The notes under the pieces are model-generated. The model saw only the letters and a list, made by a program, of their open reading frames with translations, did no database searches and was not told the DNA's origin. 64,000 nucleotides of DNA from a virus, in the IMG/VR virus record IMGVR_UViG_3300037541_000804, positions 62,001 through 126,000 of that record; one strand, 5' to 3'. The stretch's first letter is position 1, and each line of letters begins with the position of its first letter. The position numbers and the translations under genes were made by a program. Of this stretch, positions 16,556 through 55,122 are shown one piece after another.

Positions 16556-16556
16556 G

Positions 16557-16703
16557 TTATTTTTCAATCCATAAGAGAATTGGCTCTTTAGTATTAGGGC
16601 AAATTGCCCAATGTGTATATTTGGGAGGCGGCGTTTTAAATTCTAAAAATTCTACCGTATGATCCAACTGACACCTAGCGCAGCACTTAATTGTAATATT
16701 CAT
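16557..16703 (-). CDS. 48-residue zinc-knuckle protein
   Basis: Starts with an ATG that overlaps the stop of the sigma-like gene (ATGA). It reads MNITIKCCARCQLDHTVEF and later has HWAICP. CxxC followed by a more distant H/C set suggests a single zinc site. It ends two bases before the next ATG. The tight overlap on both sides supports translation. Function unknown. Confidence 0.55.
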   Translation of the reverse strand: MNITIKCCARCQLDHTVEFLEFKTPPPKYTHWAICPNTKEPILLWIEK

Positions 16704-17377
16704 GGCCAATACTCGGCTATATCACTTTCCGCGATGATTCGTTTCGCTTCTTTGGACAAACTATCCCTATGAGCGGCCAAAATCTTCTTTTGCCCGCCCT
16801 TGTTTCTGCCGCGAAGTCTCAAAACCAGAGCGGCCTCGTCTTCTGGAATGTTGCCGATAAATAAAATCTTAAACGCCTCAAACCGCTTAGGCATCATGTG
16901 TTTTTCCAACTCAACCAAGACGCGGCGCATTGTTTCCTCGAAATTAATTGAGTCGTCTATTTTATTGTTCACCTCTTGTGAATGATGTTCTAGCTCAAGA
17001 GGCATTTTAGCATGGTAGCCATACTTCTTTGTCTTGCTCCACTTTTCGTAGAGGGGGCATTCCTCGCATTGGAGATTGCTAGGAGTTTCGGCGCAACCCT
17101 CTTCTCCAACTGCTGACTTACATTGCACGCATGGGCGAGCGTGACTCGTGTAAAGGTTGCGGAATTGGTTGTAAATCTGATTGCTGGCAATGCGTTGAAC
17201 CCATGGAGCTAGTTTGCGCGTTTGATCCCAGAGATGCCACTTTTTAGCAATGTGGGCGCGAATAATTTGGGCTATATCCTCCCAATCAATCCAACGAAGA
17301 ATACCCAGAGTCCACTTTCGGCGGCGCTTGTTTAGTTCTTTTTCAATCTGATCTGAGCAATCTTCGTAGGTTAGCAT
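16700..17377 (-). CDS. sigma-70-like transcription factor with zinc insert
   Basis: 225 residues. WIDWEDIAQIIRAHIAKKWH followed by LAPWVQRIASNQIYNQFRN (about 29-76) matches sigma region 2: a D.eDi.Q helix, then a W-x-x-RIA-x-N helix that binds core polymerase and the -10 element. A Cys cluster (CVQCKSAVGEEGC...CEECPLYEKW, about 83-111) looks like an inserted zinc knuckle. The C-terminal part (about 160-215, with EDEAALVLRLRGRNKGGQKKI) is a shortened helix-turn-helix like region 4. It could direct host polymerase to the -35-less TGTAAT motif seen before late genes, as T4 gp55 does for its own late promoters. The target motif is inference. Confidence 0.65.
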   Translation of the reverse strand: MLTYEDCSDQIEKELNKRRRKWTLGILRWIDWEDIAQIIRAHIAKKWHLWDQTRKLAPWVQRIASNQIYNQFRNLYTSHARPCVQCKSAVGEEGCAETPSNLQCEECPLYEKWSKTKKYGYHAKMPLELEHHSQEVNNKIDDSINFEETMRRVLVELEKHMMPKRFEAFKILFIGNIPEDEAALVLRLRGRNKGGQKKILAAHRDSLSKEAKRIIAESDIAEYWP

Positions 17378-27985: not shown

Positions 27986-28237
27986 ATGACCAAAGACCAA
28001 CTAAACTTCCGCCGCACGATTCTGGCCCATCAAGCCATTATTGATGCGTCCAGATACGCTATTGACGAGGTGGCGATGGCTGTTATTGATGATTTTCACT
28101 TTTTGGATTACAAGGTATCAACCTTCTGGACTTGCGAAGATTCGCCGATTGGAGTTTGCGTATGGGTTTTAAACCAAGGAATTTTTGATATAAATTGTCG
28201 GTGTAGGTATTGCGGCAATCCCGTGGAGAGAAAATGA
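27986..28237 (+). CDS. hypothetical protein with C-terminal Cys pair
   Basis: 83 residues. Helix, then strands, ending CRCRYCGNPVER, a zinc-knuckle-like C-x-C-x2-C. Its TGA overlaps the next ATG. Confidence 0.6.
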   Translation: MTKDQLNFRRTILAHQAIIDASRYAIDEVAMAVIDDFHFLDYKVSTFWTCEDSPIGVCVWVLNQGIFDINCRCRYCGNPVERK

Positions 28238-28431
28238 TTATGACCAACCTAATCAAACGCTCCCTAACGACAGCCCTTAAACTCCCTTTCTCTATCGCGT
28301 GGGACTGCGTTAGTCTTGGTAATATGGGTGAGGGCAGTTCCACGTCTAAGGTTTTAGCCGAACACAAGAGAGAAAAGCAAGTGGACGAGATTCTAGAACT
28401 TTTAAAGAGAATTGGCGATTCTCAAATTTGA
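28234..28431 (+). CDS. 65-residue hypothetical protein
   Basis: Starts at the ATG overlapping the upstream TGA (a TTG eight codons earlier is disfavoured). N-terminal amphipathic/hydrophobic stretch (TALKLPFSIAWDCVSLG), then a charged helix (VDEILELLKRIGDSQI). The start resembles small phage proteins where an alternative hydrophobic helix sits at the membrane. The stop lies inside the perfect palindrome at 28418-28435. Confidence 0.5.
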   Translation: MIMTNLIKRSLTTALKLPFSIAWDCVSLGNMGEGSSTSKVLAEHKREKQVDEILELLKRIGDSQI

Positions 28432-28435
28432 GAAT
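28418..28435. repeat. palindrome ATTCTCAAATTTGAGAAT (site 1)
   Basis: Perfect 18-base palindrome at the end of gene 28234-28431 and 12 bases before the next ATG. Core TTCTCA-N4-TGAGAA recurs seven times between 28.4 and 38.7 kb. Confidence 0.65.
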
Positions 28436-28447
28436 ACTTTTGGCCGT

Positions 28448-28687
28448 ATGAAAGGCTCTTATGAATTTATTTCCGCCGATTGTTGGCGGCATATTCAAGA
28501 ATGCGTTGATTCTGATTGCGAATGGTGCGAATGGTTGGTAGAAAACGGGTTTACAACATCTTGTGAGGCTTGTGGCCACGTTGGAGATAATGAATCAGAT
28601 GGTTGGGATTCTATTATAGATGAGAATGGTGGGGTGACAGTTTTATGCCCCGAATGTAAAGAAAAGATTTTGGCCGATTGTTCTTGA
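28448..28687 (+). CDS. zinc-binding hypothetical protein
   Basis: 79 residues from ATG 28448. CEWCEW, then CEACGHVGD and CPECKEKI form CxxC pairs; the last two give a zinc ribbon. An upstream TTG start would cross the palindrome and is not used. Confidence 0.6.
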   Translation: MKGSYEFISADCWRHIQECVDSDCEWCEWLVENGFTTSCEACGHVGDNESDGWDSIIDENGGVTVLCPECKEKILADCS

Positions 28688-28712
28688 CTCTTTTATTTCC
28701 CTGTCTTAATAT
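28684..28712 (+). promoter_or_regulatory. E-promoter for 28718-29086
   Basis: TTGACT at 28684-28689, 17-base spacer, TAATAT at 28707-28712, 5 bases to the ATG. Shows that the leaderless arrangement is not confined to minus-strand genes. Confidence 0.75.
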
Positions 28713-28717
28713 ACCAC

Positions 28718-29086
28718 ATGTTCACAGACGACTTTATCCACGGCGAATGTAATGGCCGCAATATGTATGATTATGATTACGAAGAGGATGAATATGGTTT
28801 TGGCCCGCCTCCGAAGGTTAATCTTATCGGCAAAATTAAAGCCAAAACAGCTAAAGCAGCGCTCTTTGAATTGGCCGCTGTTGACCCATATACAGAATAT
28901 CCAGAAGATTTTGAAATCGGTGGGGAACAGTGGTTGCCGTTATCACAAATCGAAACGTCATCATTGCAGTCACCATACAATTTAGAGTCTGTCCCAGAAG
29001 AGCTAAAAGATTTCGTAAAAATCATTGCCCCGCTTTGGCTTGCGAATAAGTTTAAGAGTCGTTTTAAGGGAAAGATTGTTTTTTAA
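28718..29086 (+). CDS. hypothetical acidic protein
   Basis: 122 residues, very acidic N-terminus with Tyr/Asp runs (YDYDYEEDEYGFG), basic C-terminus (ANKFKSRFKGKIVF). Last plus-strand gene before the change of composition and strand. No family recognised. Confidence 0.6.
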   Translation: MFTDDFIHGECNGRNMYDYDYEEDEYGFGPPPKVNLIGKIKAKTAKAALFELAAVDPYTEYPEDFEIGGEQWLPLSQIETSSLQSPYNLESVPEELKDFVKIIAPLWLANKFKSRFKGKIVF

Positions 29087-29415
29087 TTTCGGCCCGCCTT
29101 GTAGAAAAGCTCCCAGAAAATTAGTCGTCCGACATTTTTTGCGAATTTATTAGGAGGAGATAAAAAGAGCGGCCCAAAGTTTTAGACAATGGGTGGCGGG
29201 TATGGGGGGGGGAGGCTATAGAGATGTGCTTATTATATGGGGAAGAGATGAAGATTTATATAGAGGAGTAGAGACTATACTGTAGATGCAAAGACGCTAA
29301 AGATTGGAGAATGGTTTGGTTTTTAAAATGTCAGATATAAATGGCCACTACCCCCCCAGGCGTTCTCCCTAAGAAAGCCCCCTAAAAGTTTGGCTTAATG
29401 GGTATCCCTACCCAC

Positions 29416-29435
29416 CCCTAGGTCACTTGCCTAGT
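29416..29435 (+). repeat. CCTAGGT-N6-CCTAGT repeat, copy 1
   Basis: CCCTAGGT, CACTTG, CCTAGT. The same spacing recurs at 29556, 29647 and 31927. Confidence 0.5.
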
Positions 29436-29555
29436 CCATCCTCCTACTCCATTCACCTAAGCACACCCTGTCGCGATCAGGGTCAAGCCTAGTCATTATC
29501 CTTACACCGTTTCATCGTTTTGTATAGGGTTAACGTTCAAGGTGCCAAATCTCCT

Positions 29556-29575
29556 CCCTAGGTAACACACCTACG
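29556..29575 (+). repeat. CCTAGGT-N6-CCTA repeat, copy 2
   Basis: CCCTAGGT, AACACA, CCTACG. It lies in the loop side of the GGTGCC/GGCACC hairpin. Confidence 0.5.
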
Positions 29576-29646
29576 CCTTGCTATCGGCATAGTGTGTGGC
29601 ACCTACTAAAGAGACTAAGCGCACCATAGGGAGGGTATCTATCCCT

Positions 29647-29665
29647 CATAGGTGCGTTGCCTAGT
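29647..29665 (+). repeat. CCTAGGT-N6-CCTAGT repeat, copy 3 (degenerate left half)
   Basis: CATAGGT, GCGTTG, CCTAGT. Overlaps the second hairpin and the 3' end of ORF 29661-29762. Confidence 0.45.
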
Positions 29666-29762
29666 AGTAAGGGGCGCTGATGTCAGGCCCATCGTCTTCC
29701 TTCTCATGCTTTTCCCTAAGGTAAGCAAGCCATTTCTCTAGTGTTTCTTCTTCATCTTCCAT
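29661..29762 (-). CDS. 33-residue acidic peptide
   Basis: MEDEEETLEKWLAYLREKHE then an acidic tail ending in Tyr-Tyr. Codons are open from ATG to TAG, with an amphipathic helix. The CCCCTA/TAGGGG pseudoknot-like structure lies in its leader. Small and supported only by frame and helix, so tentative. Confidence 0.35.
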   Translation of the reverse strand: MEDEEETLEKWLAYLREKHEKEDDGPDISAPYY

Positions 29763-29770
29763 AGTGATAA

Positions 29771-29817
29771 CCCCTAGGTGATTAAACCCCTTGCGCCTAG
29801 GGGAGCGGCGCAAGGGG
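29771..29817. promoter_or_regulatory. hairpin with loop-pairing segment
   Basis: Perfect 11-bp stem CCCCTTGCGCC (29787-29797) / GGCGCAAGGGG (29807-29817). The loop TAGGGGAGC contains TAGGGG, complementary to CCCCTA at 29771-29776. It lies between ORFs 29828-29890 and 29661-29762 on the minus strand, so it could act as attenuator, terminator or leader element. Its design resembles the 7.9 kb RNA. Confidence 0.5.
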
Positions 29818-29827
29818 GCGGTGGCGC

Positions 29828-29890
29828 TTACTTGCTGGCAGTGACAGCACCAAGAATTAAACCAATTAGAATCAAGATGATGATTTCCAT
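29828..29890 (-). CDS. 20-residue hydrophobic peptide
   Basis: One membrane-spanning stretch of Ile/Leu/Gly between an N-terminal Glu and a C-terminal Lys. Its ATG follows the stop of 29903-30265 by 12 bases. Resembles other micro-membrane ORFs here (36672-36734, 55818-55901, 56106-56189). Confidence 0.4.
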   Translation of the reverse strand: MEIIILILIGLILGAVTASK

Positions 29891-29902
29891 GGGTTAATGC
29901 GT

Positions 29903-30265
29903 TTACTCGTCAGCGTATCCGCATGCATATGCCTCGCCGTATGCCTTACGAATGCCTCGCTGACTAGGCATCAAAAGCGAGTGCTCGCGCATAGAATCCA
30001 TACGCTTAGAACGTGCGAATTCGCACAAGTCGATTTCTTCGTCCGCGCCTTCTTCGTCCTCATCATACGCCACGTTGTACGGGGCGCCATAGAGCGACAG
30101 CCTAGCATCATGCTCGCGAACCTTACTCATGCAGGGCATTGGAAAGCGAGGGCGCGAGACTGGCGTACCGAGTGATTCGGGCGCGAGGATAACAGGTGAG
30201 AAACGACCCGAGCAAAGGTCAAGGCGTTCAGCTTGCGATAAGTTACTGGCTAATGAGTTAATCAT
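29903..30265 (-). CDS. hypothetical protein
   Basis: 120 residues. Basic/Pro-rich first half (RPRFPMPCMSKVREHDARLSLYG), a strongly acidic centre (DEDEEGADEEIDLCEF) and an Ala/Tyr/Gly end. An opposite-strand frame also lies here but lacks promoter support. A sigma70-type promoter at 30451-30478 would give a structured leader of about 180 bases, unlike the leaderless genes around. Confidence 0.5.
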   Translation of the reverse strand: MINSLASNLSQAERLDLCSGRFSPVILAPESLGTPVSRPRFPMPCMSKVREHDARLSLYGAPYNVAYDEDEEGADEEIDLCEFARSKRMDSMREHSLLMPSQRGIRKAYGEAYACGYADE

Positions 30266-30450
30266 ATGTTTTGTTTGTTTAGTGTTTAATGTCTGCGCAC
30301 TAGCTTAGGTGCAATGCGCAGACTAGAACACTAGCTCTAGTCACCTATCCAAGGGCGGGGCCGTCGCGAGTCATTCGGCCTTTACGCTAGCAGGGGCCGC
30401 TTATGCTGGCGTGGCGCTCTATGCGCTCCGCGCTCCCTACTGACACGCCT
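30266..30450 (-). promoter_or_regulatory. long structured leader of 29903-30265
   Basis: Contains a 9-bp stem GTCTGCGCA/TGCGCAGAC (30291-30323) and several GC-rich inverted repeats. Between this leader and the DUF932 terminator there is no ORF. A candidate regulatory leader. Confidence 0.4.
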
Positions 30451-30478
30451 ATAATATAGGTAAATAATCCCTTGTCAA
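30451..30478 (-). promoter_or_regulatory. sigma70-like promoter with long leader
   Basis: TTGACA (30473-30478), 16-base spacer, TATTAT (30451-30456) on the minus strand. Confidence 0.6.
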
Positions 30479-30508
30479 CTCCCGAACAGGAAAAGAATAA
30501 AAAAAACA

Positions 30509-30537
30509 ATTGTAAAAAGATTGTAAGGAAATTGTAA
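30509..30537 (+). repeat. three ATTGTAA direct repeats at 11-bp period
   Basis: ATTGTAA at 30509, 30520 and 30531, one helical turn apart, within AT-rich DNA between a promoter and a terminator. Iteron-like; could bind an initiator or regulator. Confidence 0.5.
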
Positions 30538-30604
30538 GACTCAAAAGATGCAATCTTGGCATGCTTTGTGAAGCAAAGTAACCCTTGTACCTGGTACGCA
30601 AAAA

Positions 30605-30626
30605 GGGCGCGGATTGCTCCGCGCCC
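30605..30626 (-). terminator. terminator of the DUF932 gene
   Basis: GGGCGCGG/CCGCGCCC stem (8 bp, 6-base loop) followed on the minus strand by TTTTTGCG, just past the stop of 30638-31711. Confidence 0.8.
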
Positions 30627-30637
30627 CTCGTTAGCTG

Positions 30638-31711
30638 CTAGGCTCTAGCCAGCAAAGGCAAAACCTTGCTTTGCATGCTGGCTCCCATCTTGCGCCAGCT
30701 TTCCCGCGTACCTTCGTCAAGCAAGCCAGACACAAAACGCGTTTTGTGCTCCGCCGCTCCTGCAAACTCCGCTTTGTACATGCGTTCGGCGGAATCGCTC
30801 TTTTTGCCCGTGCCCTCGCCGCTTGTCCAATATTCCGTTGCGCCGTTTGCCAGATCATAGAGCGAGCGGCCAGAATTGCCCCGCCCGCGATAAGCTAAGC
30901 GCGTGATTTCTTCCGCCGCATTTTGCGAGCGCGTAGCAAGCTCGTCCGTCTTATCCTGCATGCTGGCAAAATAGCCAAGGGGGATTTGCTTCATGGCTTG
31001 CGTGTCGGAATCAATCCTCGCCAGCTCTTCCATGCAACGCACAAATTCGCCACGTCCTGCCATGATGGCTTGAACCATTTCCGCCACATGGGCAATTTTC
31101 AGACTGGCGTTTTGCGTATGATAAACGGAAAAACCAACTTCACCTTGCGCCTCCAATGACCAACGCAACGTATTCATGCAGACAATCCGAATCATCGAAT
31201 CGTAACAGCGCAAGCCAAGCGTGCCATCGTGCGAAGTAACAAAATTCAAAGACGTTTTAATTGTCTCGTCATTAAAACGAGTTTTTACGCGCAAATCTTC
31301 CCCGATTGACACGCTAGCGAAACACTTTTTCCCGCCCTCAAGCGTTCCTGCGCATGTGACCGTTGCGCCGTTGTCTAAAACATCCGCCAGCGAATCGCGA
31401 AGCAAGGCAAACAATTCGGCGTTTTCGATGGGCCGATAACTGTTTTTTGGAATGTGAAGCGGCACAATCTCGTTGGCGGTGCCGACAAGATCAGGACGGC
31501 AGGCGCGATAATCAGCGGCCAAAACCTTATGATTCGGCATAACGTACGTTTTCTCGTCAACGGTGAAGCTGGCATTTCCTTCAATGATTCGAGGGGATAA
31601 ATAAATAAATTCGTTTTCCCCGATTGAAGGAACAACGGTGGCGAGTTTATGCCATTCGCTCCCTTGGGTGGAAAAGATGGCGTCGATAGGCTTGATGATT
31701 CCGTGTGACAT
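30638..31711 (-). CDS. DUF932 family protein
   Basis: 357 residues. It begins with a WHKLATVV-type segment and has the core YDSMIRIVCMNTLRWSLEAQ then VYHTQNASLKIAHVAEMVQAI (about 173-225), the conserved centre of DUF932/phage-plasmid proteins. That family is common on phages and plasmids, with unknown biochemical role and possibly DNA-associated. Codon use is richer in GC (CGC, GCG, AAG) than the flanking AT-rich genes, and it sits in the repeat-rich island, hinting at separate acquisition. Followed by its own terminator. Confidence 0.8.
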   Translation of the reverse strand: MSHGIIKPIDAIFSTQGSEWHKLATVVPSIGENEFIYLSPRIIEGNASFTVDEKTYVMPNHKVLAADYRACRPDLVGTANEIVPLHIPKNSYRPIENAELFALLRDSLADVLDNGATVTCAGTLEGGKKCFASVSIGEDLRVKTRFNDETIKTSLNFVTSHDGTLGLRCYDSMIRIVCMNTLRWSLEAQGEVGFSVYHTQNASLKIAHVAEMVQAIMAGRGEFVRCMEELARIDSDTQAMKQIPLGYFASMQDKTDELATRSQNAAEEITRLAYRGRGNSGRSLYDLANGATEYWTSGEGTGKKSDSAERMYKAEFAGAAEHKTRFVSGLLDEGTRESWRKMGASMQSKVLPLLARA

Positions 31712-31926
31712 ATAGTTAGAGCGTTAGAGTTTGGATTATCTGCGAGGAGAAATTGTCTCCCGTCACTCTTAATATGGAATAGATTTTTCCACCGTGCAAC
31801 AACCAATTCATCTTTTTCGGCGTTATAATTTCCAGAACGGGCCATTCTAGCTTTTATAAGCGGCAGGATCATAATCTGATTCAATTTTTCGCCCCTAATA
31901 CTGTTCAACCGAACATCATCATTCAA

Positions 31927-31945
31927 CCTAGGTTGCGTCCCTAGT
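31927..31945 (+). repeat. CCTAGGT-N6-CCTAGT repeat, copy 4
   Basis: CCTAGGT, TGCGTC, CCTAGT. It lies upstream of the DUF932 gene, 2.5 kb from copy 1 in the same orientation. Confidence 0.5.
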
Positions 31946-32010
31946 CTCTATAGGTGAACGGCGTAAAACGCTCTCGTAGGAAATTCTCCCTCGTTATCTC
32001 CCGTAGGGAG

Positions 32011-32028
32011 ATGCCCTACGGCGAGTAT
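32011..32028 (+). repeat. 18-bp inverted repeat, left arm
   Basis: ATGCCCTACGGCGAGTAT, exactly the reverse complement of 33534-33551. The pair encloses gene 32236-32871 and a micro-ORF. Confidence 0.6.
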
Positions 32029-32067
32029 ATTTGCAGGCTGTACTATTTGACCGAAAACAAAAACAAT

Positions 32068-32085
32068 TTTCTCAAAAATGAGAAT
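32068..32085. repeat. palindrome TTCTCA-N4-TGAGAA (site 2)
   Basis: TTTCTCAAAAATGAGAAT, core intact, one outer mismatch. Confidence 0.55.
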
Positions 32086-32171
32086 CCGCGCTAAAAAATC
32101 GAATCGTTTAAATTTGTTCTGAGCGTCAGGATAGCGGCCTCAAAATCGGGCGCTTTAAAACGAAAGGAAAC

Positions 32172-32227
32172 AGCCCTATCGGCTTATTTGCCAACTTAGG
32201 CAAATATCTTATTTGACCGTTAGGGCT
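32172..32227 (-). terminator. compound terminator after 32236-32871
   Basis: Outer stem AGCCCTA/TAGGGCT with an adjoining CGG/CCG, enclosing an inner ATTTGCC/GGCAAAT hairpin. On the minus strand it is followed by GTTTCCTTTCGTTTT. Confidence 0.6.
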
Positions 32228-32235
32228 TTCTCAAC

Positions 32236-32871
32236 TCATGCCAGCGGCCTCATCAAATCTTCCAATGGGTTAAATCGGGCGGGATTTGCATAGCAGCCAG
32301 TGTTTTGCTCAACGGGCTTATTTGCGGCAATCCACTTTTCAAAGGTGGTTGTTGAGTGTCCTTTAGCGACACTCTCGCCAAACTCGCGCATGATTTTATT
32401 TCTAGCGTCTAACTCATTTTCAGCCAAAACAGCGATTGAACAGCCATATTCATTATTATAGAATTTATAACCGTCCATCCAACGGGTGAGGGAAACATCT
32501 GGAATTGTTTTTTCCGTGACGAATTGACTCAAGCGAGAATCATATTCCACTCGCTCGATTCTCAATTCTGAGAATTTGGCGAGAATGTTTTCTGGCGACT
32601 CTTCAAACATGTTATCTGGAATGATTTTTTTCAGCAGTTTCAAAGCATTTGAAACATGATCCACGCAATTTCCACGCGCTTCAATTGTGGTACGCATGCC
32701 GTACCAGCCCTTATTAGTGTGGTCGGACTGGAAACGCATAACAATCAATTCATCCATGGAGGTTGAATTGAATTCGCCACGCTTCAAAATTTGAAGATTG
32801 AGATGCTTAAAACCATTTGAGGTTTCGCTTGAGACTCTGAAACCGAACTTTGGGCAGGTGATTTTGTTCAT
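32236..32871 (-). CDS. hypothetical protein
   Basis: 211 residues, mixed alpha/beta. The N-terminal strands read FGFRVSSETSNGFKHLNLQILKRGEF, followed by a helical middle with an acidic stretch. Promoter TTGCAT, 18 bases, TATTAA, 4 bases before ATG. Palindrome site 3 (32558-32575) lies inside the gene. Lies between the DUF932 gene and a gene-poor stretch. No family recognised. Confidence 0.6.
   Translation of the reverse strand: MNKITCPKFGFRVSSETSNGFKHLNLQILKRGEFNSTSMDELIVMRFQSDHTNKGWYGMRTTIEARGNCVDHVSNALKLLKKIIPDNMFEESPENILAKFSELRIERVEYDSRLSQFVTEKTIPDVSLTRWMDGYKFYNNEYGCSIAVLAENELDARNKIMREFGESVAKGHSTTTFEKWIAANKPVEQNTGCYANPARFNPLEDLMRPLA
32558..32575. repeat. palindrome TTCTCA-N4-TGAGAA (site 3)
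   Basis: ATTCTCAATTCTGAGAAT, within the coding region of 32236-32871. Confidence 0.55.
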
Positions 32872-33185
32872 GCTTTTAATATGCCACGTTGGAAACTATA
32901 TGCAAGTTAATTCTGCTCTTTTTCTTTGCGCCAAAATATAAAGAAATAAACCTTGCTCCGACTCCTTTTCTCGATTATCTTAAAACACGGGAGCGTGAAG
33001 GGAGCGCCAGTCCGACAAGTCTAAGGGAACGCGCCCAAAAATAATTATAAAAACCATAATCCCTTAAAATTTTACCCTTGCGAGAATTTCCTAAGATATT
33101 CGCGGCCCCTTATGTTTCGGGCGTCTTAGGGATTGTCGGTGGTTTGTTTTGTAAGATAGCGCGGGACTTCCGCGTTGTCAAACTT
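32872..33185. other. gene-free region
   Basis: No ORF with promoter or overlap support. Several short GC-rich clusters and a CTAAG-rich stretch are visible; nothing definite. Confidence 0.3.
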
Positions 33186-33275
33186 TTATTTAGGACTTTT
33201 CATCCAAGTGCTCCCATTTTCATGCAGGGTATATCCTAGATTAATCATAAAGTCGGCGAATTGTTTTTCATTCAT
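33186..33275 (-). CDS. 29-residue peptide
   Basis: MNEKQFADFMINLGYTLHEN then GSTWMKSPK. An E-promoter (TTGATT, 17 bases, TAAAAT, 6 bases to ATG) precedes it, which supports a real leaderless gene despite its size. Confidence 0.5.
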   Translation of the reverse strand: MNEKQFADFMINLGYTLHENGSTWMKSPK

Positions 33276-33351
33276 GGGTTTATTTTACCACAGGGAAAGA
33301 AGGGAATCAAGTATTATTTGTTATTTCGGCCAAAATTAAAAAGCATTTTGT

Positions 33352-33369
33352 TTTCTCACTTTTGAGAAT
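33352..33369. repeat. palindrome TTCTCA-N4-TGAGAA (site 4)
   Basis: TTTCTCACTTTTGAGAAT, core intact. Confidence 0.55.
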
Positions 33370-33533
33370 GCAGTAAAAACGGGGTCTTAGGGTGTTTTCC
33401 GATAGGATAACCCCTAACAAAAAGGCCCGCCCTCCTTTTGAGAGAGCGAGCTAAAACTTTTCACCCTTATTTGATGCCGAAGGGTTTCTAGGGAGAGGTA
33501 GAAGATGCACCTAGAGGTTTTCTGGTTATGGAA

Positions 33534-33551
33534 ATACTCGCCGTAGGGCAT
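33534..33551 (-). repeat. 18-bp inverted repeat, right arm
   Basis: Exact reverse complement of 32011-32028. Confidence 0.6.
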
Positions 33552-33581
33552 AGGGGAAACCCCTATAACCCCTAGGCATTA

Positions 33582-33782
33582 TCAATCTTTGCTTTCTTCG
33601 TCCTCATCTTCTTCTTCTTCTTCAAGCCATCCGATACGTTGCGCCATATCGGCCACATCGCTTTCGCTCATGTATGCAAGGCACTCGCGCACGATTGCGG
33701 CGGGATCAAGAACGCCTTCGTCCATCATTTCGAGGACTTTGCAGGTTGCTTGGCGAACGTTTGGGTGAGTTGAGAATCTCAT
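33582..33782 (-). CDS. small acidic protein
   Basis: 66 residues ending in a Glu/Asp run. Two helices (RQATCKVLEMMDEG; DPAAIVRECLAYMSESDVADMAQRIGW). Promoter TTGCGC, 16 bases, TACACT, 9 bases before ATG. Possibly a DNA-mimic or regulator; unproven. Confidence 0.6.
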   Translation of the reverse strand: MRFSTHPNVRQATCKVLEMMDEGVLDPAAIVRECLAYMSESDVADMAQRIGWLEEEEEDEDEESKD

Positions 33783-33820
33783 AGTAAGGGAAGTGTAAGG
33801 GTTATTTGAGCGGGCGCAAG

Positions 33821-33988
33821 TTAATTTTTGCAGTTTTCTTCATGAATTCGCCGTCCTTCTGAAACGATAGTCATGGCGGCGGAAAAGGAGATTTCTTTAC
33901 GCTCGGCGAATTTTTCGACTGTCAAATAATCATTGACGTATTCGAGGTAGAGGTCAGAGAGAATGGAGCGGAGTGATTTGTTTTGCAT
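33821..33988 (-). CDS. 55-residue helical protein
   Basis: MQNKSLRSILSDLYLEYVND, then a helix-turn-helix-like stretch YLTVEKFAERKEISFSAAMT. Promoter TTGCAC, 18 bases, TATTAC, 4 bases before ATG. This is the pattern of common small phage proteins in which lt...fA...gis...A is followed by ...G. Function unknown. Confidence 0.6.
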   Translation of the reverse strand: MQNKSLRSILSDLYLEYVNDYLTVEKFAERKEISFSAAMTIVSEGRRIHEENCKN

Positions 33989-34030
33989 GAGAGTAATATG
34001 CAGGTTATTTGAAGGAGTGCAAGGTTTTTT

Positions 34031-34264
34031 TTAAACATTATGCACAATATATTCATGGCACGCGGCCAAACATTCACGCGGGGAACCTCCTACGAGCATG
34101 CGCTGGCAGCAATGGCGAGCGAGCTGCTCAATTGTGGCAAGGTCAATTGCAGAGTAATTGCATCTCCCCCCTACCATAAAGCGCATAATGTGGCCTTTTT
34201 CGGCCAATTTAGCGTTTAAGATTTCAACGTCAGCAATGAGGTTGTTGTGAGTGTATCGTTTCAT
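34031..34264 (-). CDS. hypothetical protein
   Basis: 77 residues with a strand-helix pattern, a Gly-Gly-Arg-Cys-Asn turn (MVGGRCNYSAIDLA) and a helix containing a Cys pair (ARHCCQRMLVGGSPRECLAACHEYI). A strong E-promoter precedes it. Recurrent in phages as a small DUF; no function can be given. Confidence 0.65.
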   Translation of the reverse strand: MKRYTHNNLIADVEILNAKLAEKGHIMRFMVGGRCNYSAIDLATIEQLARHCCQRMLVGGSPRECLAACHEYIVHNV

Positions 34265-34271
34265 GGAGAGT

Positions 34272-34299
34272 ATTATATAAGGATAACAGAGAGAATCAA
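34272..34299 (-). promoter_or_regulatory. E-promoter for 34031-34264
   Basis: TTGATT, 16-base spacer, TATAAT (34272-34277), 7 bases to the ATG. Confidence 0.75.
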
Positions 34300-34455
34300 G
34301 AGGTATTTGTAGATTAGGGCAGGAAAAGAAAGTTAGGCTAGGCTAAGATTGTTATTTGCGAGAAAGAAAAGCCAAGGATAATACTTTACCAACTAGTCAA
34401 CTATTCTCTTCTCTAAAAACAAACCTTTTCTCTTTTTCTCCCCTAGTATTCTTCC

Positions 34456-34761
34456 TTACTGTTTTTCCATTAGGAACTCGTTTATTTTCTTTACTAGGTC
34501 ATCATTGTCTTTTCCATCTTCATAAGCGGCGCAATTTCCCAAACGGCGCTTTGCTTTAACAAGCAAGTCAAGCATTTTTCTTTGATCTAATGGGCGTTCC
34601 ACGTTTTGTTCCACGTTGGCAGCATGAATGCTCGAAAGGGTTATTTCATCGCGGAAACACTCTCTAAATCCTTCGCGAATTCCAGTTTCAATTTCAGAAA
34701 GCGAAGCTGGTTTTTGTCCGCAATTTGTTTCGACTTCAGTAACGAAAACTTGTTTGTTCAT
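34456..34761 (-). CDS. hypothetical protein
   Basis: 101 residues, helical, with an amphipathic centre and charged end. TTGACG with a weak TAGCTT -10, 5 bases from ATG. A gene-free pyrimidine-rich stretch of 190 bases separates it from 34031-34264. Confidence 0.55.
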   Translation of the reverse strand: MNKQVFVTEVETNCGQKPASLSEIETGIREGFRECFRDEITLSSIHAANVEQNVERPLDQRKMLDLLVKAKRRLGNCAAYEDGKDNDDLVKKINEFLMEKQ

Positions 34762-34869
34762 GGTCTAAGCTAATCTAAGATTCCCCACCCGTCAAGCCAT
34801 AAAAAAGAAAAAAGACTAAACAAGGGCGGCCAAAAATATCCAAACAAAGGATTTAACACGTCGGGGAGT

Positions 34870-35124
34870 TCAATCGTAAACAAATCTTGTCCTAGTTATT
34901 TCAGTATGCCCGCAATGGGCGCATTTGCAATAATAAATCTCTTCGCACCAACCTTGATAATCGACAAATTCTGTTTTATTTTGGAAGATTTGATTACCAT
35001 ATTTATCTCTTGAATACCAATTTGGGTTTTTAGTCCAAGAGTGGCTTCCTTTACGGCAATTAATTTCTCTTCGATTTTTTAAGAAAAGACAGAATTTATT
35101 TTGGAGGTTTTTGAAAATGCTCAT
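34870..35124 (-). CDS. zinc-finger hypothetical protein
   Basis: 84 residues, basic. KGSHSW early and CKCAHCGHTEITR near the C-terminus, a CxCxxCGH knuckle. This form is seen in many phage DUFs. Follows 35128-35298 with an ATG three bases past that stop. Confidence 0.6.
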   Translation of the reverse strand: MSIFKNLQNKFCLFLKNRREINCRKGSHSWTKNPNWYSRDKYGNQIFQNKTEFVDYQGWCEEIYYCKCAHCGHTEITRTRFVYD

Positions 35125-35127
35125 AAT

Positions 35128-35298
35128 TCAGTTATCCATTTCTTCCCATTCTTTTTCAATCGCCCAATGAGAGGAAAAACTTCGTAAATAAAAACCATAA
35201 TCGTCTCCTAGAGGAATATTTCTATCGCTCATGTATTTTAAGCACTCTTCTTTTGTGCCGCGAAAGACGATTTCCTGTTTCAGATGCGTTGTAATCAT
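35128..35298 (-). CDS. 56-residue hypothetical protein
   Basis: Start set at the ATG 35296-35298, which lies 6 bases after TATAGT of a perfect E-promoter (TTGACA, 17 bases); an upstream TTG would lie in the promoter. Contains QEIVFRGTKEECLKYMSDR, a beta-hairpin then helix as in many small phage proteins. Confidence 0.65.
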   Translation of the reverse strand: MITTHLKQEIVFRGTKEECLKYMSDRNIPLGDDYGFYLRSFSSHWAIEKEWEEMDN

Positions 35299-35356
35299 GG
35301 GGAGACTATAATCCCTCAATTATTCCTTGTCAAGCGGCCAAATCACAAAAGACAAT

Positions 35357-35515
35357 TCACGGCTCAATAATAATGCTTTGGATTTCTTTTGGGATTGAAC
35401 GATAACCATTCTCGGTTTCGAGAATCAAAAGAACATCTTCATCCATCGCCTCCAAAACTTCGGAAAAAGTGATTTGTTCGATTTTGGCGTTTGGATAAGT
35501 GATTGTTGCTTTCAT
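35357..35515 (-). CDS. 52-residue hypothetical protein
   Basis: MKATITYPNAKIEQITFSEV then LEAMDEDVLLILETENGYRS. Beta-helix-beta pattern. Palindrome site 5 (ATTCTCGGTTTCGAGAAT)lies in its coding region. Confidence 0.6.
   Translation of the reverse strand: MKATITYPNAKIEQITFSEVLEAMDEDVLLILETENGYRSIPKEIQSIIIEP
35408..35425. repeat. palindrome variant TTCTCG-N4-CGAGAA (site 5)
   Basis: ATTCTCGGTTTCGAGAAT. The compensating change at both arms (A to G, T to C) keeps the dyad. Confidence 0.55.
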
Positions 35516-35521
35516 AAGCGA

Positions 35522-35550
35522 ATAATAACCCCTACTTCATACCTTGTCAA
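35522..35550 (-). promoter_or_regulatory. E-promoter for 35357-35515
   Basis: TTGACA (35545-35550), 17-base spacer, TATTAT (35522-35527), 6 bases to ATG. Confidence 0.75.
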
Positions 35551-35559
35551 GCGGCCAAA

Positions 35560-35793
35560 TCACTTACTTGGAAATCCTTTTAATTCGATTTTCATTCTTT
35601 CGGCCATTAGTCGCACGCCAGAAAGCAATTCAGAACGGCTCCTGTCGAGGGAAACGTGGTACATTCCAACCTGATATTGCTCGCGTTTAGGTTCAAAACT
35701 GAAAACCTCTTCTGGATTCCAAATACCATAAGTGGTTTCCTTTACGACGATTCCGTTAGTAAGGGCGAATTGAATGATTTGGTCTTTGGTCAT
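35560..35793 (-). CDS. hypothetical protein
   Basis: 77 residues. MTKDQIIQFALTNGIVVKET at the start resembles the N-terminus of 45513-45716 (MTKDQLQAYCL), a helix-turn start common in phage DUFs. E-promoter TTGACA, 17 bases, TAATAT, 6 bases. Confidence 0.6.
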   Translation of the reverse strand: MTKDQIIQFALTNGIVVKETTYGIWNPEEVFSFEPKREQYQVGMYHVSLDRSRSELLSGVRLMAERMKIELKGFPSK

Positions 35794-35824
35794 GGCAAGA
35801 TATTACTTCAATATTTTAAACTTG

Positions 35825-36118
35825 TCAAGCCGCCGTCAAATCTTTTTCGCGTTCAACGGAAACATTTCCATTCGGCCATTTTACCTCATAGCGGCCAAAT
35901 CCATTCTCCATATAAAAACCATAAACTTCACCAACTCCAATCCCCTGATTAAAACGAGAATATGGAGACGGCTTAACTTTCGCACCCATTGCAAAAATCT
36001 GTTTTTCTTTTCCTGCGGGCGTGGCGGGGATTTTGAGGTTTTTGTAGTAGCCAAAAAATTGGCGGTTTTCTTCGATTTGTTGAAGGACAGAAAGAGCGGC
36101 GAGTTTGTTTGGGTTCAT
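35825..36118 (-). CDS. hypothetical protein
   Basis: 97 residues: helical N-terminus (KLAALSVLQQIEENRQFFGYYKNL), then a basic loop and beta strands (VGEVYGFYMENGFGRYEVKWPNGNVSVER) with a Gly/Tyr pattern. E-promoter TTGCGT, 17 bases, TATATT, 6 bases. Confidence 0.6.
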   Translation of the reverse strand: MNPNKLAALSVLQQIEENRQFFGYYKNLKIPATPAGKEKQIFAMGAKVKPSPYSRFNQGIGVGEVYGFYMENGFGRYEVKWPNGNVSVEREKDLTAA

Positions 36119-36174
36119 GCGGAGAATATATCAGCTAATTATTCCCCACGCAAGCTAAAAAGATGAGTTTGTGT

Positions 36175-36594
36175 CTAAACTTCTTTCGGCCAAACAATTT
36201 TTTGTCCCCATGTTCTACCGTCGTTATCTTCTAGCAGTTCGGGCGGAGTCAGTTCTACGACTCTAAAACGATTCAATTTATTCTTTTCGGCGTATTTAAG
36301 AGCGGCCTTTTCACTAGGAAAGCGTTTTGCCTTCTTAGTGTTCATGATTGACCGTGTTCTTCCATCCGTAGAAATGTATTCCCATAGTTCCCCGCTAGAA
36401 TCGGCGTAAATGTAAACCTCAATTTCAAAACACACGGGGCGCGGCAATTTCTTAACCTCATCATCTGGCTTGAAGTCTGCCGTTATAATCACGTCTCCGC
36501 TCCTTGCGGTGATAGAAATCCTTGGGATTTCATCAAACAAACCAGTTAATTTACCAATCCTTTCAACCTTAGCGTACTGCCAGTTTTCCGCCAT
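36175..36594 (-). CDS. hypothetical protein
   Basis: 139 residues, beta-rich first half (ISITARSGDVIITADFKPDDE) and a helical segment KAKRFPSEKAALKYAEKNKLN. The latter pattern is typical of a short SPOR-like or DUF1653-type alpha/beta fold, but no family can be fixed. No clear E-promoter. Confidence 0.6.
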   Translation of the reverse strand: MAENWQYAKVERIGKLTGLFDEIPRISITARSGDVIITADFKPDDEVKKLPRPVCFEIEVYIYADSSGELWEYISTDGRTRSIMNTKKAKRFPSEKAALKYAEKNKLNRFRVVELTPPELLEDNDGRTWGQKIVWPKEV

Positions 36595-36671
36595 ATCATA
36601 ACCAAAATCTAAAAGAATTTAATCTTTTGGGAGGATGTGTTTTGCTTTCATTTGTTTTTTAGGGTTAAGCC

Positions 36672-36734
36672 CTATTTCTTTAACTCAATCCATGCCCCTA
36701 TCAGCACGCAAACCAGCAAGAACAGCCCAAACAT
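36672..36734 (-). CDS. 20-residue membrane peptide
   Basis: One hydrophobic span rich in Leu/Val/Phe followed by Trp-Ile-Glu-Leu-Lys-Lys. Its ATG overlaps the stop of 36734-37018 (TAATG), which strongly suggests coupled translation. Confidence 0.5.
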   Translation of the reverse strand: MFGLFLLVCVLIGAWIELKK

Positions 36735-37018
36735 TAAGCAACCTCCTTGGTTTTGTATTTGACGGCTCCCACGGATACGAAGGAAATCCCTTTCATGGCG
36801 GCAAATTCCTTAATATCGGCCAAGCTCCCGATATACTGTCCAAACTGATACTTGTCGCCCTTGAATCCAAGTTTCTTGAGCTTGGGAGGAAGTTCCGCAA
36901 CCTGCCCCCTGTCTTTCTTACTTGCGAAGTTCCACAGCCGCTTTTGATGCTTAAAGCGTGGAGATTGCCAGATTGAGGATGGTTTGATTTCGCTGCGGGG
37001 TTCAATTTCTTGTTTCAT
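36734..37018 (-). CDS. hypothetical basic protein
   Basis: 94 residues, Lys/Arg-rich. A compact second half (LGFKGDKYQFGQYIGSLADIKEFAAMKGISFVSVGAVKYK) contains strand-helix alternation. E-promoter TTGCAA, 17 bases, TATATT, 6 bases. Confidence 0.6.
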   Translation of the reverse strand: MKQEIEPRSEIKPSSIWQSPRFKHQKRLWNFASKKDRGQVAELPPKLKKLGFKGDKYQFGQYIGSLADIKEFAAMKGISFVSVGAVKYKTKEVA

Positions 37019-37042
37019 GGGTAGAATATAGCGTTTAAAAAT

Positions 37043-37264
37043 TTACTTTGCAAGCTCAAATCCAATTACTTGCACAAATTTATCGCCATTGCTGGCATAA
37101 ATAAATCCGTCGCAATCAAAATCATCTCCCGTGTCGGGATTAATCGGCACGCCCGAATAATCAAGATTTGCCAAAGAAATAAATGTTTCGTTAATTTCCG
37201 CGCCCTCTTCGGTTTCTTGGAAATAGCGCAGGAATGTCGAATCGGTGATGGGTGACGTTTTCAT
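37043..37264 (-). CDS. hypothetical acidic protein
   Basis: 73 residues with an Asp-rich stretch (NPDTGDDFDCDGFIYASNGDKFVQVIGF). The C-terminal YASNGD.f.qV.g pattern suggests a small beta fold. Strong E-promoter. Confidence 0.6.
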   Translation of the reverse strand: MKTSPITDSTFLRYFQETEEGAEINETFISLANLDYSGVPINPDTGDDFDCDGFIYASNGDKFVQVIGFELAK

Positions 37265-37270
37265 AGGATT

Positions 37271-37298
37271 ATATTAGCAATTAACAACTACTTGTCAA
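37271..37298 (-). promoter_or_regulatory. E-promoter for 37043-37264
   Basis: TTGACA (37293-37298), 16-base spacer, TAATAT (37271-37276), 6 bases to ATG; a TATAAT is also present three bases nearer. Confidence 0.75.
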
Positions 37299-37452
37299 GT
37301 CCACAAGCGGCCAAAAATCGGCCCTTGTCAAAGTTCCCGTTGTCATTCATGTTTATAACAACGATTGCGGCGGCTTTTGCTTCTGCTATTTGCCCAGCCT
37401 CAACATAGAGTTTGATGAAACGGGCGGCGAGGATAAAATGCTTTTTGCTCAT
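37288..37452 (-). CDS. 54-residue hypothetical protein
   Basis: MSKKHFILAARFIKLYVEAG, then an Ala-rich helix and DNGNFDKGRFLAACGL. The F...A..i...........f......DN.nFD..RFl.AcG pattern is common in small phage proteins of unknown role. TAGACA with TATAGT 5 bases before ATG. Confidence 0.65.
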   Translation of the reverse strand: MSKKHFILAARFIKLYVEAGQIAEAKAAAIVVINMNDNGNFDKGRFLAACGLDK

Positions 37453-37482
37453 AAAAGACTATATACTGGTTTAAACCCTTGT

Positions 37483-37890
37483 CTAGCGGATTTCCATCAA
37501 ATCATTAATGCTTTCCACCGTGTCGAAAATTTTCTTCAACTTGGCACTTTGTTTCTGACAAGCATTAAAGGTTTTCTCCGCCTTGCGCGAATCGGCATCA
37601 TATCCAAATTCGCTGCAAAATTCCTCAAAAGAATCGGGACAATTAAATTCGCTTGAACAGCAGGCAAGAACCGAATATTCGTCCAATTCAGTTTTCCCCG
37701 CGTTGAAATTGTTTACCGAATCAAAGAAATCAAACGACACACGGCGATTCTCATTTTTGAGAGTCACGATAAAATGATTAACTTTTCTGTCAGGACTCCA
37801 TGGCGGAGACTTCTTATTGACCAGTTTGGCGGAAAACTTGATTCCGTGTTTAGCAAGGAAATCGGCGGCTTGTTGTTGGTAGTCGTTCAT
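37483..37890 (-). CDS. hypothetical protein
   Basis: 135 residues. AADFLAKHGIKFSAKLVNKKSPPWSPDRKVNHFIVTLKNENRRVSFDFFDSVN then a CCSSEFNCPDSFEEFCSEFGYDADSRKAEKTFNACQ segment. This F......G........ytLs..gr..sf.F..S; ...dt..FaceyGyD.ds.kA...y matches a widespread phage DUF of unknown function. E-promoter TTGACA, 16 bases, TAACTT, 6 bases. Palindrome site 6 lies within it. Confidence 0.7.
   Translation of the reverse strand: MNDYQQQAADFLAKHGIKFSAKLVNKKSPPWSPDRKVNHFIVTLKNENRRVSFDFFDSVNNFNAGKTELDEYSVLACCSSEFNCPDSFEEFCSEFGYDADSRKAEKTFNACQKQSAKLKKIFDTVESINDLMEIR
37747..37764. repeat. palindrome TTCTCA-N4-TGAGAG (site 6)
   Basis: ATTCTCATTTTTGAGAGT, one mismatch in the right arm. Confidence 0.5.
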
Positions 37891-37926
37891 GGGGTGAAGT
37901 TAGGTTAGATTTGGCCGTTGTCAAAA

Positions 37927-38112
37927 TTATTCGGTAATTTCTCGAATATCCTCGGTTCCATTATTGTTTCGGAAGTCTTCATCAATCCAATCTTGGATGA
38001 ATTCCAGAAAGCCCTCTTGTGTTGGCTCTTCCCCGATTTCTTCGCAACATTCCAGATAGGCGGCTGGATTGTACTCCATTGTGCGGGTGACTCGTATGTT
38101 GTTTAGCTTCAT
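37927..38112 (-). CDS. hypothetical acidic protein
   Basis: 61 residues with the helix EEPTQEGFLEFIQDWIDEDF, a small DUF pattern. E-promoter TTGACT, 15 bases, TATATA. Confidence 0.6.
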   Translation of the reverse strand: MKLNNIRVTRTMEYNPAAYLECCEEIGEEPTQEGFLEFIQDWIDEDFRNNNGTEDIREITE

Positions 38113-38143
38113 AGGGCGAGTATATAACAGGTTAATGGTTGAG

Positions 38144-38311
38144 TCAAGGAATTTCTACAAGGCACTCGTAACTATTTTGTGGAGATTGTTTTTCATATTG
38201 TTTTTCCAATTGAGAACAATATCTTTCGGCCCTTTCAACAGAATCGAAACTGGATTCTTCCCTACGATGAAATTCAACGCCGTTTCGTTTGAAAATAAAA
38301 ATCAATTTCAT
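38144..38311 (-). CDS. 55-residue hypothetical protein
   Basis: Start set at the ATG lying 6 bases after TATAAT of an E-promoter (TTGACT); the longer frame would start in the promoter. Beta-beta-helix: KLIFIFKRNGVEFHRREESSFDSVERAERYC. Confidence 0.6.
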   Translation of the reverse strand: MKLIFIFKRNGVEFHRREESSFDSVERAERYCSQLEKQYEKQSPQNSYECLVEIP

Positions 38312-38344
38312 AGGTTTATTATACCAATTATTTCGGCCAGTCAA

Positions 38345-38515
38345 CTAAAAACGAAAATGCCCCTTGTCTTTCTGTTTCGCAAACCAGCTTCCCTTTTTAT
38401 ATTGTTCGTTTTCGGTTATTTTTTCGCGCTTAAATTCGTCAAAATTTTCTACGTCGTGCCATTCGGTTATTTCGCCGTTTGGGGATTTGTATGTAATTTG
38501 ATACTTTGTTTGCAT
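38345..38515 (-). CDS. 56-residue basic protein
   Basis: MQTKYQITYKSPNGEITEWH at the start, Lys/Glu-rich end. No motif. Starts near the stop of 38532-38762 (17-base gap). Confidence 0.5.
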   Translation of the reverse strand: MQTKYQITYKSPNGEITEWHDVENFDEFKREKITENEQYKKGSWFAKQKDKGHFRF

Positions 38516-38531
38516 AAACAACAATAAACGA

Positions 38532-38762
38532 TTATTCTTTGTGGCGCAAATGCTTTTTATAAATTACGCCTGATTCTTTTCGGGCCGTTTCAATCATTCT
38601 TCTTGCTTTCATAGAAAAGCAAATGTCACCGCACTTGTCGCAAATTTCATGCGGCACATTCTCAATTATGAGAATTTGACCGTTTCCACCCGTTGTTTCG
38701 TATGGGCGTAAAATTGTTTCATAAAAACCGTTAGCACATTCAAAGCATGGAATGTTTATCAT
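38532..38762 (-). CDS. YgiT-type zinc-finger protein
   Basis: 76 residues. CFECANG near 6-12 and CDKCGDICFSMKARRMIE near 41-58, separated by strands with VPHEI. This is the YgiT/MqsA N-terminal zinc-finger arrangement (C..C...............v....C..CGe..f). MqsA-like antitoxins continue with an HTH, absent here. Could be a stand-alone transcription or RNA-binding regulator. Palindrome site 7 falls inside. Textbook E-promoter. Confidence 0.7.
   Translation of the reverse strand: MINIPCFECANGFYETILRPYETTGGNGQILIIENVPHEICDKCGDICFSMKARRMIETARKESGVIYKKHLRHKE
38658..38675. repeat. palindrome TTCTCA-N4-TGAGAA (site 7)
   Basis: ATTCTCAATTATGAGAAT, inside the YgiT-type gene. Confidence 0.55.
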
Positions 38763-49272: not shown

Positions 49273-50433
49273 ATGACGCATCGCGGCTACAAATATCGCA
49301 TATATCCAACAGCTTGTCAAGAGGGAATCTTGCGCAAAACGATTGGATCGTGTAGATTTGTGTACAATTGGGCGCTGGCACAGCGGCGAGAGGCGTGGGT
49401 GACGAGTAAAAAAAGCGTTTCTTACAGCGCAACGTCCAAAGGTTTGACCGAACTCAAGGAGTCGCCCGAGAAAGTTTGGCTTAACGACGTTTCAAGCGTT
49501 TGCTTACAACAAAGTTTGCGAAATCTTGATTTGGCGTTTAACAACTTTTTTCGCAAAAAATCCGCATATCCATCTTTCAAGAGTCGAAAAAATGGTGGCA
49601 GTGCGCGATTTATGGATAACGCTTTCCAAATTAAAGGAGATGGCTTGTTTCTTGCAAAAATTAAAACGCCAATCGTGATTAAGTGGTCGCGTCAGCTTTC
49701 CAGCGCTCCTAATTCATGCACAATTTCCCAAAACGCTGCGGGTCAGTGGTTTGCATCGTTCTTGTGCGAGGAAGAAATACCTCACTTGCCGCCAACGAAT
49801 AACAAGGTTGGCATTGACGTTGGAATTGAAAACTTTGCCACACTTTCAGACGGGCGAAAATTTCAATCTCCGAAAGCGATTCGTAAGTTGCGCAAAAAGT
49901 TAGCATGCTTGCAAAAGCGTCACTCGCGCAAGCAAAAAGGCTCTAAAAACCGTGAACGCGCTCGCAAAAAGGTTGCCCGCGTTCACCAGCACATCGCAGA
50001 TGTGCGTAAAGATTTTCTCCACAAACTGTCAACTCAACTCGTTCGCGAAAACCAAGCGATTGCAATTGAGGATTTGGCGGTGTCAAACATGGTTAAGAAC
50101 CGCAAACTTTCTCGCTGTATCAGCGAGCAAGGCTGGCGCGACTTTCGCACTATGCTTGAATACAAGTGCGAATGGTATGGGCGAGAACTACTTGTCGTTG
50201 ACAGGTTTTTTCCCTCATCCAAGACCTGTTCTTGTTGTGGAGCGAAAGCAGAGTTAACATTGAAAGATCGTGTTTGGAGTTGCGCCTGTGGCGCAACGCA
50301 TGATCGCGACGTGAACGCCGCGAAAAACATTTTGGCCGCTGGACAAGCGGTTGCAGCCTGTGGAGCTGACGGAAGACCAACGAAGAACTACGTTCTTCGC
50401 GGCAGTCGGCAACGAAGCAGGAAACCTTCTTAG
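49273..50433 (+). CDS. tnpB: TnpB RNA-guided nuclease, element 1
   Basis: 386 residues. N-terminal helix-turn-helix (MTHRGYKYRIYPTACQEGILR), wedge region, then RuvC: VGIDVGIENFATL (first Asp), IAIEDLAVSNMVKN (Glu) and HDRDVNAAKNIL (last Asp). The zinc module is CSCCG...CACG, with C-x-C in the second knuckle where the second copy has C-x2-C. All three catalytic acids remain, so the protein should be active. TnpB cuts DNA guided by an omega RNA made from its own right end. Confidence 0.9.
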   Translation: MTHRGYKYRIYPTACQEGILRKTIGSCRFVYNWALAQRREAWVTSKKSVSYSATSKGLTELKESPEKVWLNDVSSVCLQQSLRNLDLAFNNFFRKKSAYPSFKSRKNGGSARFMDNAFQIKGDGLFLAKIKTPIVIKWSRQLSSAPNSCTISQNAAGQWFASFLCEEEIPHLPPTNNKVGIDVGIENFATLSDGRKFQSPKAIRKLRKKLACLQKRHSRKQKGSKNRERARKKVARVHQHIADVRKDFLHKLSTQLVRENQAIAIEDLAVSNMVKNRKLSRCISEQGWRDFRTMLEYKCEWYGRELLVVDRFFPSSKTCSCCGAKAELTLKDRVWSCACGATHDRDVNAAKNILAAGQAVAACGADGRPTKNYVLRGSRQRSRKPS

Positions 50434-53256: not shown

Positions 53257-53410
53257 AAATTGGAAATGAGAATTGCCACTTTCGATACTACGAAAAGTCC
53301 CTAATCCTCCCTTGCGGGTAGTGGCCCGTTTTGCATTAGGCTCTCATTGTTTAGAAATTATTGCCTGTCTCTCCAAGCTGTCACCGATGGCCTTTACCAA
53401 ACCACGCGCA
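53257..53410. other. gene-free stretch with nested hairpins
   Basis: CCTAAT/ATTAGG encloses CGGG/CCCG (about 53300-53343), and ACTTTCG can pair with CGAAA-GT just before (about 53277-53300). It lies between the tRNA-like gene and element 2 and may be part of a longer structured RNA. Confidence 0.35.
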
Positions 53411-53495
53411 AAGAAAGCCCCTTCCTTTAGGTAGGGGATGAATTTGCGGTCAAACAAAATAATTAAAAAGTTTTTGGGTGTTTTTTAACAATTAG

Positions 53496-53501
53496 TGTAA
53501 T
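53496..53501 (+). promoter_or_regulatory. L-motif TGTAAT of element 2
   Basis: TTAGTGTAATATA, 9 bases to the TTG start of tnpB. Confidence 0.5.
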
Positions 53502-54867: not shown

Positions 54868-55122
54868 TTAGGAATGCAGCTTGTGGTTCGTATAAGCGGC
54901 TTTGAACTTGGGATAGCTCTTGTATTTGGTCAAGTCTTTTTCAACCATTACGCGGTGAATGCTGTTGATAGAGCAACCTCGCTTGCGCATAGCGCTAACG
55001 GTTTCCGCCTCGTCAGAAGCCATAATCGCCCTTGGTCTTCCGAGGTTCTTAATGCGGCCATTCGCAAGAATTTTTGCGCGAGCTACTAGCTGATCTACGA
55101 TTTGTTTGTTTTTGTTGTTCAT
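54868..55122 (-). CDS. HTH-like hypothetical protein
   Basis: 84 residues, basic. RPRAIMASDEAETVSAMRKRGCSINSIHRVMVEKD (about 30-64) has the resolvase-type helix-turn-helix pattern (a...l...G.Si..I.....), so it may bind DNA. No catalytic domain. Confidence 0.65.
   Translation of the reverse strand: MNNKNKQIVDQLVARAKILANGRIKNLGRPRAIMASDEAETVSAMRKRGCSINSIHRVMVEKDLTKYKSYPKFKAAYTNHKLHS

Follow-up and report, generated by a model that had tools for sequence, protein, structure and literature searches.

Seven clustered 18-bp palindromes in a large environmental phage genome: possible operators of a small phage-encoded protein

The palindrome set

The DNA considered here is a 64,000-nucleotide stretch (the window) corresponding to bases 62001-126000 of the 165,329-bp phage record IMGVR_UViG_3300037541_000804 from IMG/VR, and it carries a set of seven near-identical palindromes with the 18-bp consensus WTTCTCRWWWWYGAGAAW, all within 10.3 kb of the record. 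They were found at every position given in an earlier note that had been made from the letters alone. Coordinates refer to the window unless the record is named. The sites surround a noncoding hub (29087..29902), the point of convergence between rightward genes on one side (23-29 kb) and leftward genes on the other (30-64 kb).

Four sites lie in predicted genes, two are noncoding and one falls on a stop codon. The last of these, palindrome 1 (ATTCTCAAATTTGAGAAT, 28418..28435), is a perfect 18-bp dyad on the left side of the hub, where it overlaps the stop codon of the open reading frame at 28234-28431. The noncoding sites are palindrome 2 (TTTCTCAAAAATGAGAAT, 32068..32085), flanked by genes 30638-31711 and 32236-32871, and palindrome 4 (TTTCTCACTTTTGAGAAT, 33352..33369), upstream of a weak minus-strand promoter with its -35 box at 33310. 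The intragenic sites are all in minus-strand genes: palindrome 3 (ATTCTCAATTCTGAGAAT, 32558..32575) in a gene for a 211-amino-acid (aa) protein (32236-32871), 296 nt past the start codon; palindrome 5 (ATTCTCGGTTTCGAGAAT, 35408..35425) in gene 35357-35515, at 90 nt; palindrome 6 (ATTCTCATTTTTGAGAGT, 37747..37764) in a 135-aa gene (37483-37890), at 126 nt; and palindrome 7 (ATTCTCAATTATGAGAAT, 38658..38675) in gene 38532-38762, at 87 nt. The match to the consensus is perfect (14/14) at 28418, 32558 and 38658, there is one mismatch at 32068, 33352 and 37747, and there are two at 35408, where they form a symmetric G/C double change.

The earlier note had described TTCTCA-N4-TGAGAA as common to all seven sites. 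This holds exactly for five; site 6 reads TTCTCA-N4-TGAGAG, and site 5 reads TTCTCG-N4-CGAGAA, the symmetric double change that the note had also reported. The five exact copies are the only ones in the whole record, and they stand against a mean of 0.017 under an order-3 Markov model. Of the two outcomes that the note had named as refuting it, a number no higher than expected and an even spread over the phage genome, neither was observed. As a guard against post hoc choice of the pattern, every possible dyad of 6-bp arms around a 0-14-bp gap was scored, leaving out low-complexity arms, and this dyad ranked first both by total number and by clustering. With up to two mismatches to the 18-mer there is one additional match, at record position 151890. 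The excess vanishes into the background once two or more mismatches are allowed, so that the claim rests on the strong sites. The seven-site set is real and non-random, and probably functional.

Sites 5, 6 and 7 share one reading frame (their offsets of 90, 126 and 87 are divisible by 3) and encode [I/T]L-x-x-EN, so that part of the signal could be a codon coincidence, the true set then being smaller. Coding sequence can yield such families: TTGAGA-N5-TCTCAA occurs four times (record positions 9698, 14181, 17492 and 110266, the last being window position 48266; 0.03 expected), always in the same codon frame and encoding [L/V/I]-E-x-x-S-Q. Sites 2 and 4, however, are noncoding, site 1 lies on a stop codon and site 3 uses a different frame, while the exact count and the clustering are extreme and related phages carry noncoding copies. 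We therefore give a coincidence at the protein level only a slight chance, even for some of sites 5-7.

Form of the site

Alignment of the half-sites gives a sharply bounded, symmetric 18-bp consensus; the 12 bases to its left and the 12 to its right carry no clear information. Across 14 sites from three phages (the present one and two relatives described below) TCTC/GAGA is unchanged and the spacer is 87.5% A/T. The alternative that the sites act in transcripts, as stem-loops for processing, antitermination or protein binding, draws on the fact that each can fold into a short stem with a 4-nt loop, that the pairing at site 5 survives a double change, and that one site resembles a weak terminator in a pattern scan. 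But the arms keep their sequence and the loop does not, outer pairs are broken in several sites, pairing covariation among the sites does not exceed that in shuffles, and an Rfam search of the window gave no match. We regard RNA hairpins as very improbable. The fixed arms, the AT-rich spacer and the missing covariation give the set the look of a dimer's DNA operator; conservation is of sequence and not of pairing, and the form fits two half-sites read by a dimer better than a stem-loop.

Gene context and promoters

Few parts of the record hold as much noncoding sequence as positions 90-96 kb, which are surpassed only at its extreme start. The noncoding sequence at 29087-33600, like that at 12900-17100 of sequence L216, is rich in short CCTAGG/TAGGG-like hairpins, some with a 5-bp stem and a 7-nt loop, a style common to the relatives. 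A replication origin at the hub was considered on the basis of GC (guanine-cytosine) skew and rejected, as the skew has no turning point there.

A TTGACA/TATAAT-type promoter is found within 60 bases before the start codon in 29 of the 75 leftward early genes (30000-64000, minus strand; shuffles, 1.4), and in 23 of these 29 a distance of 5-6 bases separates the end of the -10 box from the ATG. Shine-Dalgarno-like sequences are scarce (11 of 278 genes), and the early mRNAs are apparently leaderless as a rule. A different element, GTGTAA[TC], is present in the 40 nt that precede 17 of 139 non-early genes, frequently at 7-8 nt from the start, as compared with 1 of 75 early genes; examples are found upstream of the structural genes 9878-11905 and 6282-7811 (minus strand). 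It may be a late promoter, and a protein with sigma-70 region 2 is also encoded in the record.

None of the seven palindromes overlaps a strong sigma-70-like (TTGACA/TATAAT) promoter; two of them have a strong promoter, close to a start codon, at 87 and 90 nt upstream. This bears out the description of the sites as mostly inside genes or away from promoters, and as something other than classical promoter operators.

Regional clustering, palindrome size and indifference to coding sequence are also features of chromosomal parS, and the sites are grouped around the internal part of the genome that is richest in noncoding sequence. They could therefore be centromere-like or DNA-organising sites, by which a phage protein would hold or tether the genome near a hub of replication or segregation, independently of transcription. 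The hub lacks a skew turning point, however, and no sign of maintenance as a plasmid-like prophage was found. Moreover, neither ParB_N nor AAA_31 (ParA) was detected in the phage or in its 148-kb relative by searches that were positive in control genomes, although the ParA search covers AAA_31 and would be compatible with a partition ATPase of another family. Partition sites, one of two functions proposed earlier, are thus weakened as an explanation, and we rate this possibility as improbable.

The set in related phages

Two relatives carry the motif. One is a 148-kb genome (G004; terminase about 75% identical) with six sites at one mismatch or fewer (1.0 expected), the other is 12.7 kb long (G016) and has two (0.06 expected). 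Both have noncoding copies, and each has a site within its counterpart of the noncoding hub (29.1-29.9 kb of the window) or adjacent to it. Relatives were also sought with the DUF932 protein and with only the 211-aa protein as query, and neither search yielded any in viral contigs.

At palindromes 3 and 6 the genes can be aligned with no gap to their homologs in the 148-kb relative, whose codons lack the palindrome. As judged from these alignments, the sites differ by point substitution, not insertion, and they arise or decay in this manner. A mobile palindromic element was rejected on the same grounds. Comparison of relatives at such sites is a route to studying the origin of operators within coding sequence.

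The dyad in other phages and in bacteria

Scans of sequence collections found the same dyad as close tandem pairs, mostly intergenic, in several unrelated phage groups, and also in bacterial genomes, where some copies lie upstream of winged helix-turn-helix (wHTH)-like regulator genes. Together with the failure to find a repressor of a known family in the phage, this could point to a host-encoded regulator, the phage using or titrating a host transcription factor that has this operator. The bacterial genomes tested, however, hold only 2-8 exact copies each and belong to many phyla, which makes convergent use of a simple dyad likely, and the phage sites lie off promoters. We consider a host regulator unlikely. 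The tandem-pair scans included no control dyad and so are not evidence of a common binder, and an attempt to name the binder through other phages was abandoned, as no single regulator is common to the dyad-bearing phage groups and bacteria. These occurrences support only that the dyad sequence can serve as a DNA operator.

In an unrelated phage, represented by IMG/VR contigs 3300017736_001617 and 3300017784_003989 (L338, L339), eight exact copies of TTCTCA-N4-TGAGAA are spread over about 20 kb, each in a short gap that separates genes of the same direction; by their arrangement these would make a strong, separate case of a dispersed operator. A text search of the literature for the motif returned a single match, an unrelated paper on a baculovirus vector.

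The host was sought through TnpB and the UV-endonuclease UvdE, with distant matches only. The record holds three TnpB-like gene copies with 73-77% identical DNA (window 49273-50433 and 53655-54701; record 53349-54575), and a 35-bp exact piece of this repeat is also present at record position 130385.

Candidate binding proteins

Two small predicted HTH proteins are encoded in the same gene block as the palindromes and are candidate binders. The first (33821..33988, minus strand) has 55 aa and a predicted three-helix HTH fold, with a mean pLDDT (predicted local distance difference test) score of 94.9 for a structure predicted from the single sequence. HTH DNA-binding proteins make up most of its best structural matches, of which none is significant; it matches PHROGs 26669/4907, for which a function is not known, and weakly a Cox-like excisionase/repressor. 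The second (54868..55122, minus strand) has 84 aa, with a GRPR arm and a helical, HTH-like segment, and a 44% identical homolog exists in the motif-carrying 148-kb relative.

This second protein was one of two candidates proposed in the earlier note, and its HTH-like character and conservation speak for it. The other, the product of gene 38532-38762, fared less well. Its 76 aa include two Cys pairs (CFEC...CDKC), and on visual inspection it is similar to a zinc finger of the YgiT/MqsA type, while its Pfam and PHROG matches are weak; it is short, Cys-rich, of uncertain family and no clear DNA-binder. Pfam scans of most predicted proteins yielded no repressor among the matches listed (the first 25 families of each scan).

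Proposed mechanism

The palindromes are very probably bound by a dimeric protein. Of the explanations considered, we favour one in which the palindromes are operators of a phage-encoded HTH dimer that acts along the DNA in the manner of stoperators, a tentative reading to which we give slightly less than an even chance. One sequence-specific homodimer, most likely a small phage-encoded HTH protein, would bind all seven palindromes; its two contacts with TTCTC would fall in major grooves separated by roughly a helical turn, on either side of the AT-rich centre. Since the sites lie around the noncoding hub, in or between small early genes and off promoters, the bound protein would most likely act along the DNA, as a stoperator-like roadblock or a silencing anchor, and would limit transcription of the early segment.

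Several observations weigh against this proposal. Few of the roughly 75 early genes, most of which are separately promoted, carry a site, so that silencing of the block would be weak. The 148-kb relative also holds two sites in structural genes, and the cluster is missing from two distant relatives (204 and 225 kb). As to the binder, no homolog of the 55-aa protein was found in the motif-bearing 148-kb relative, and a fold search with the 84-aa protein gave no significant match. Neither the phage nor this relative yielded an HTH_3 (CI-type) repressor or a tyrosine integrase, which would imply lysogeny, in searches whose positive controls matched. A lysogenic lifestyle was rejected on the basis of these empty family searches.

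A more specific version can be formulated: a phage without recognisable lysogeny genes, and with many separately promoted, leaderless early genes, would use intragenic 18-bp palindromes, free in position, as roadblocks or anchors; their binder would be a very small HTH protein (55-84 aa) of a new class, and sites would turn over by point substitution. That all of this should hold together is doubtful, and we would put little weight on the full combination. If a small phage protein does bind the sites, this large environmental phage would provide a compact and testable case of regulation, or of genome organisation, that works within genes and independently of promoters, and it would give access to the control of early genes in an uncultured lineage.

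Comparison with known systems

The set is not supported as a member of the ParABS family. Several copies of chromosomal parS may be dispersed around the origin (PMC5016525), and the phage sites are likewise palindromic and clustered in one part of the replicon; they differ from parS in sequence and are unaccompanied by a member of the ParB_N or ParA families searched. A lambda CI-type operator is a poor match as well, given sites that do not overlap promoters and no HTH_3-type repressor.

Stoperators, the other function proposed at the outset, have proved a fair functional analogy. In the cluster A mycobacteriophage L5, many copies of a short site, mostly off promoters, block elongation (PMC6550527), and the present set is similarly a repeated short site located mostly off promoters. 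The L5 sites, which are 13 bp and asymmetric (PMC9283540), are predominantly in one orientation relative to transcription, number up to about 30 per genome and have a known repressor. The phage sites, in contrast, are 18 bp, symmetric and only seven, in a single 10-kb region; a cognate repressor was not recognised (no HTH_3 match and none among the listed Pfam families), and small HTH-like proteins are present. Membership in the L5 family is not supported.

SPbeta offers a parallel in the way its element came to light, since in silico work revealed the repeat SPBRE in a large phage genome and identification of its repressor, MrpR, followed 24 years later (PMC10516654). SPBRE is a 15-bp motif in promoter and intergenic regions, bound by a repressor with a tyrosine-recombinase fold, whereas the sites described here avoid promoters and an integrase-family protein was not detected. 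Phage P1, with 22 C1 operators dispersed over a large genome (PMC8546580), shares with the present phage the dispersal of copies of a single operator; the C1 operators are 17 bp, asymmetric and repress lytic genes, in contrast to a set in a phage with no lysogeny genes found. In general terms, a bounded, symmetric consensus in the range of about 16-20 bp, occurring above chance and also found in relatives, is the picture given by dispersed operators of dimeric HTH proteins, and this is what the phage presents. With P1 C1, L5 and SPBRE as precedents, dispersed phage operators are already known, and the present set is ordinary in kind.

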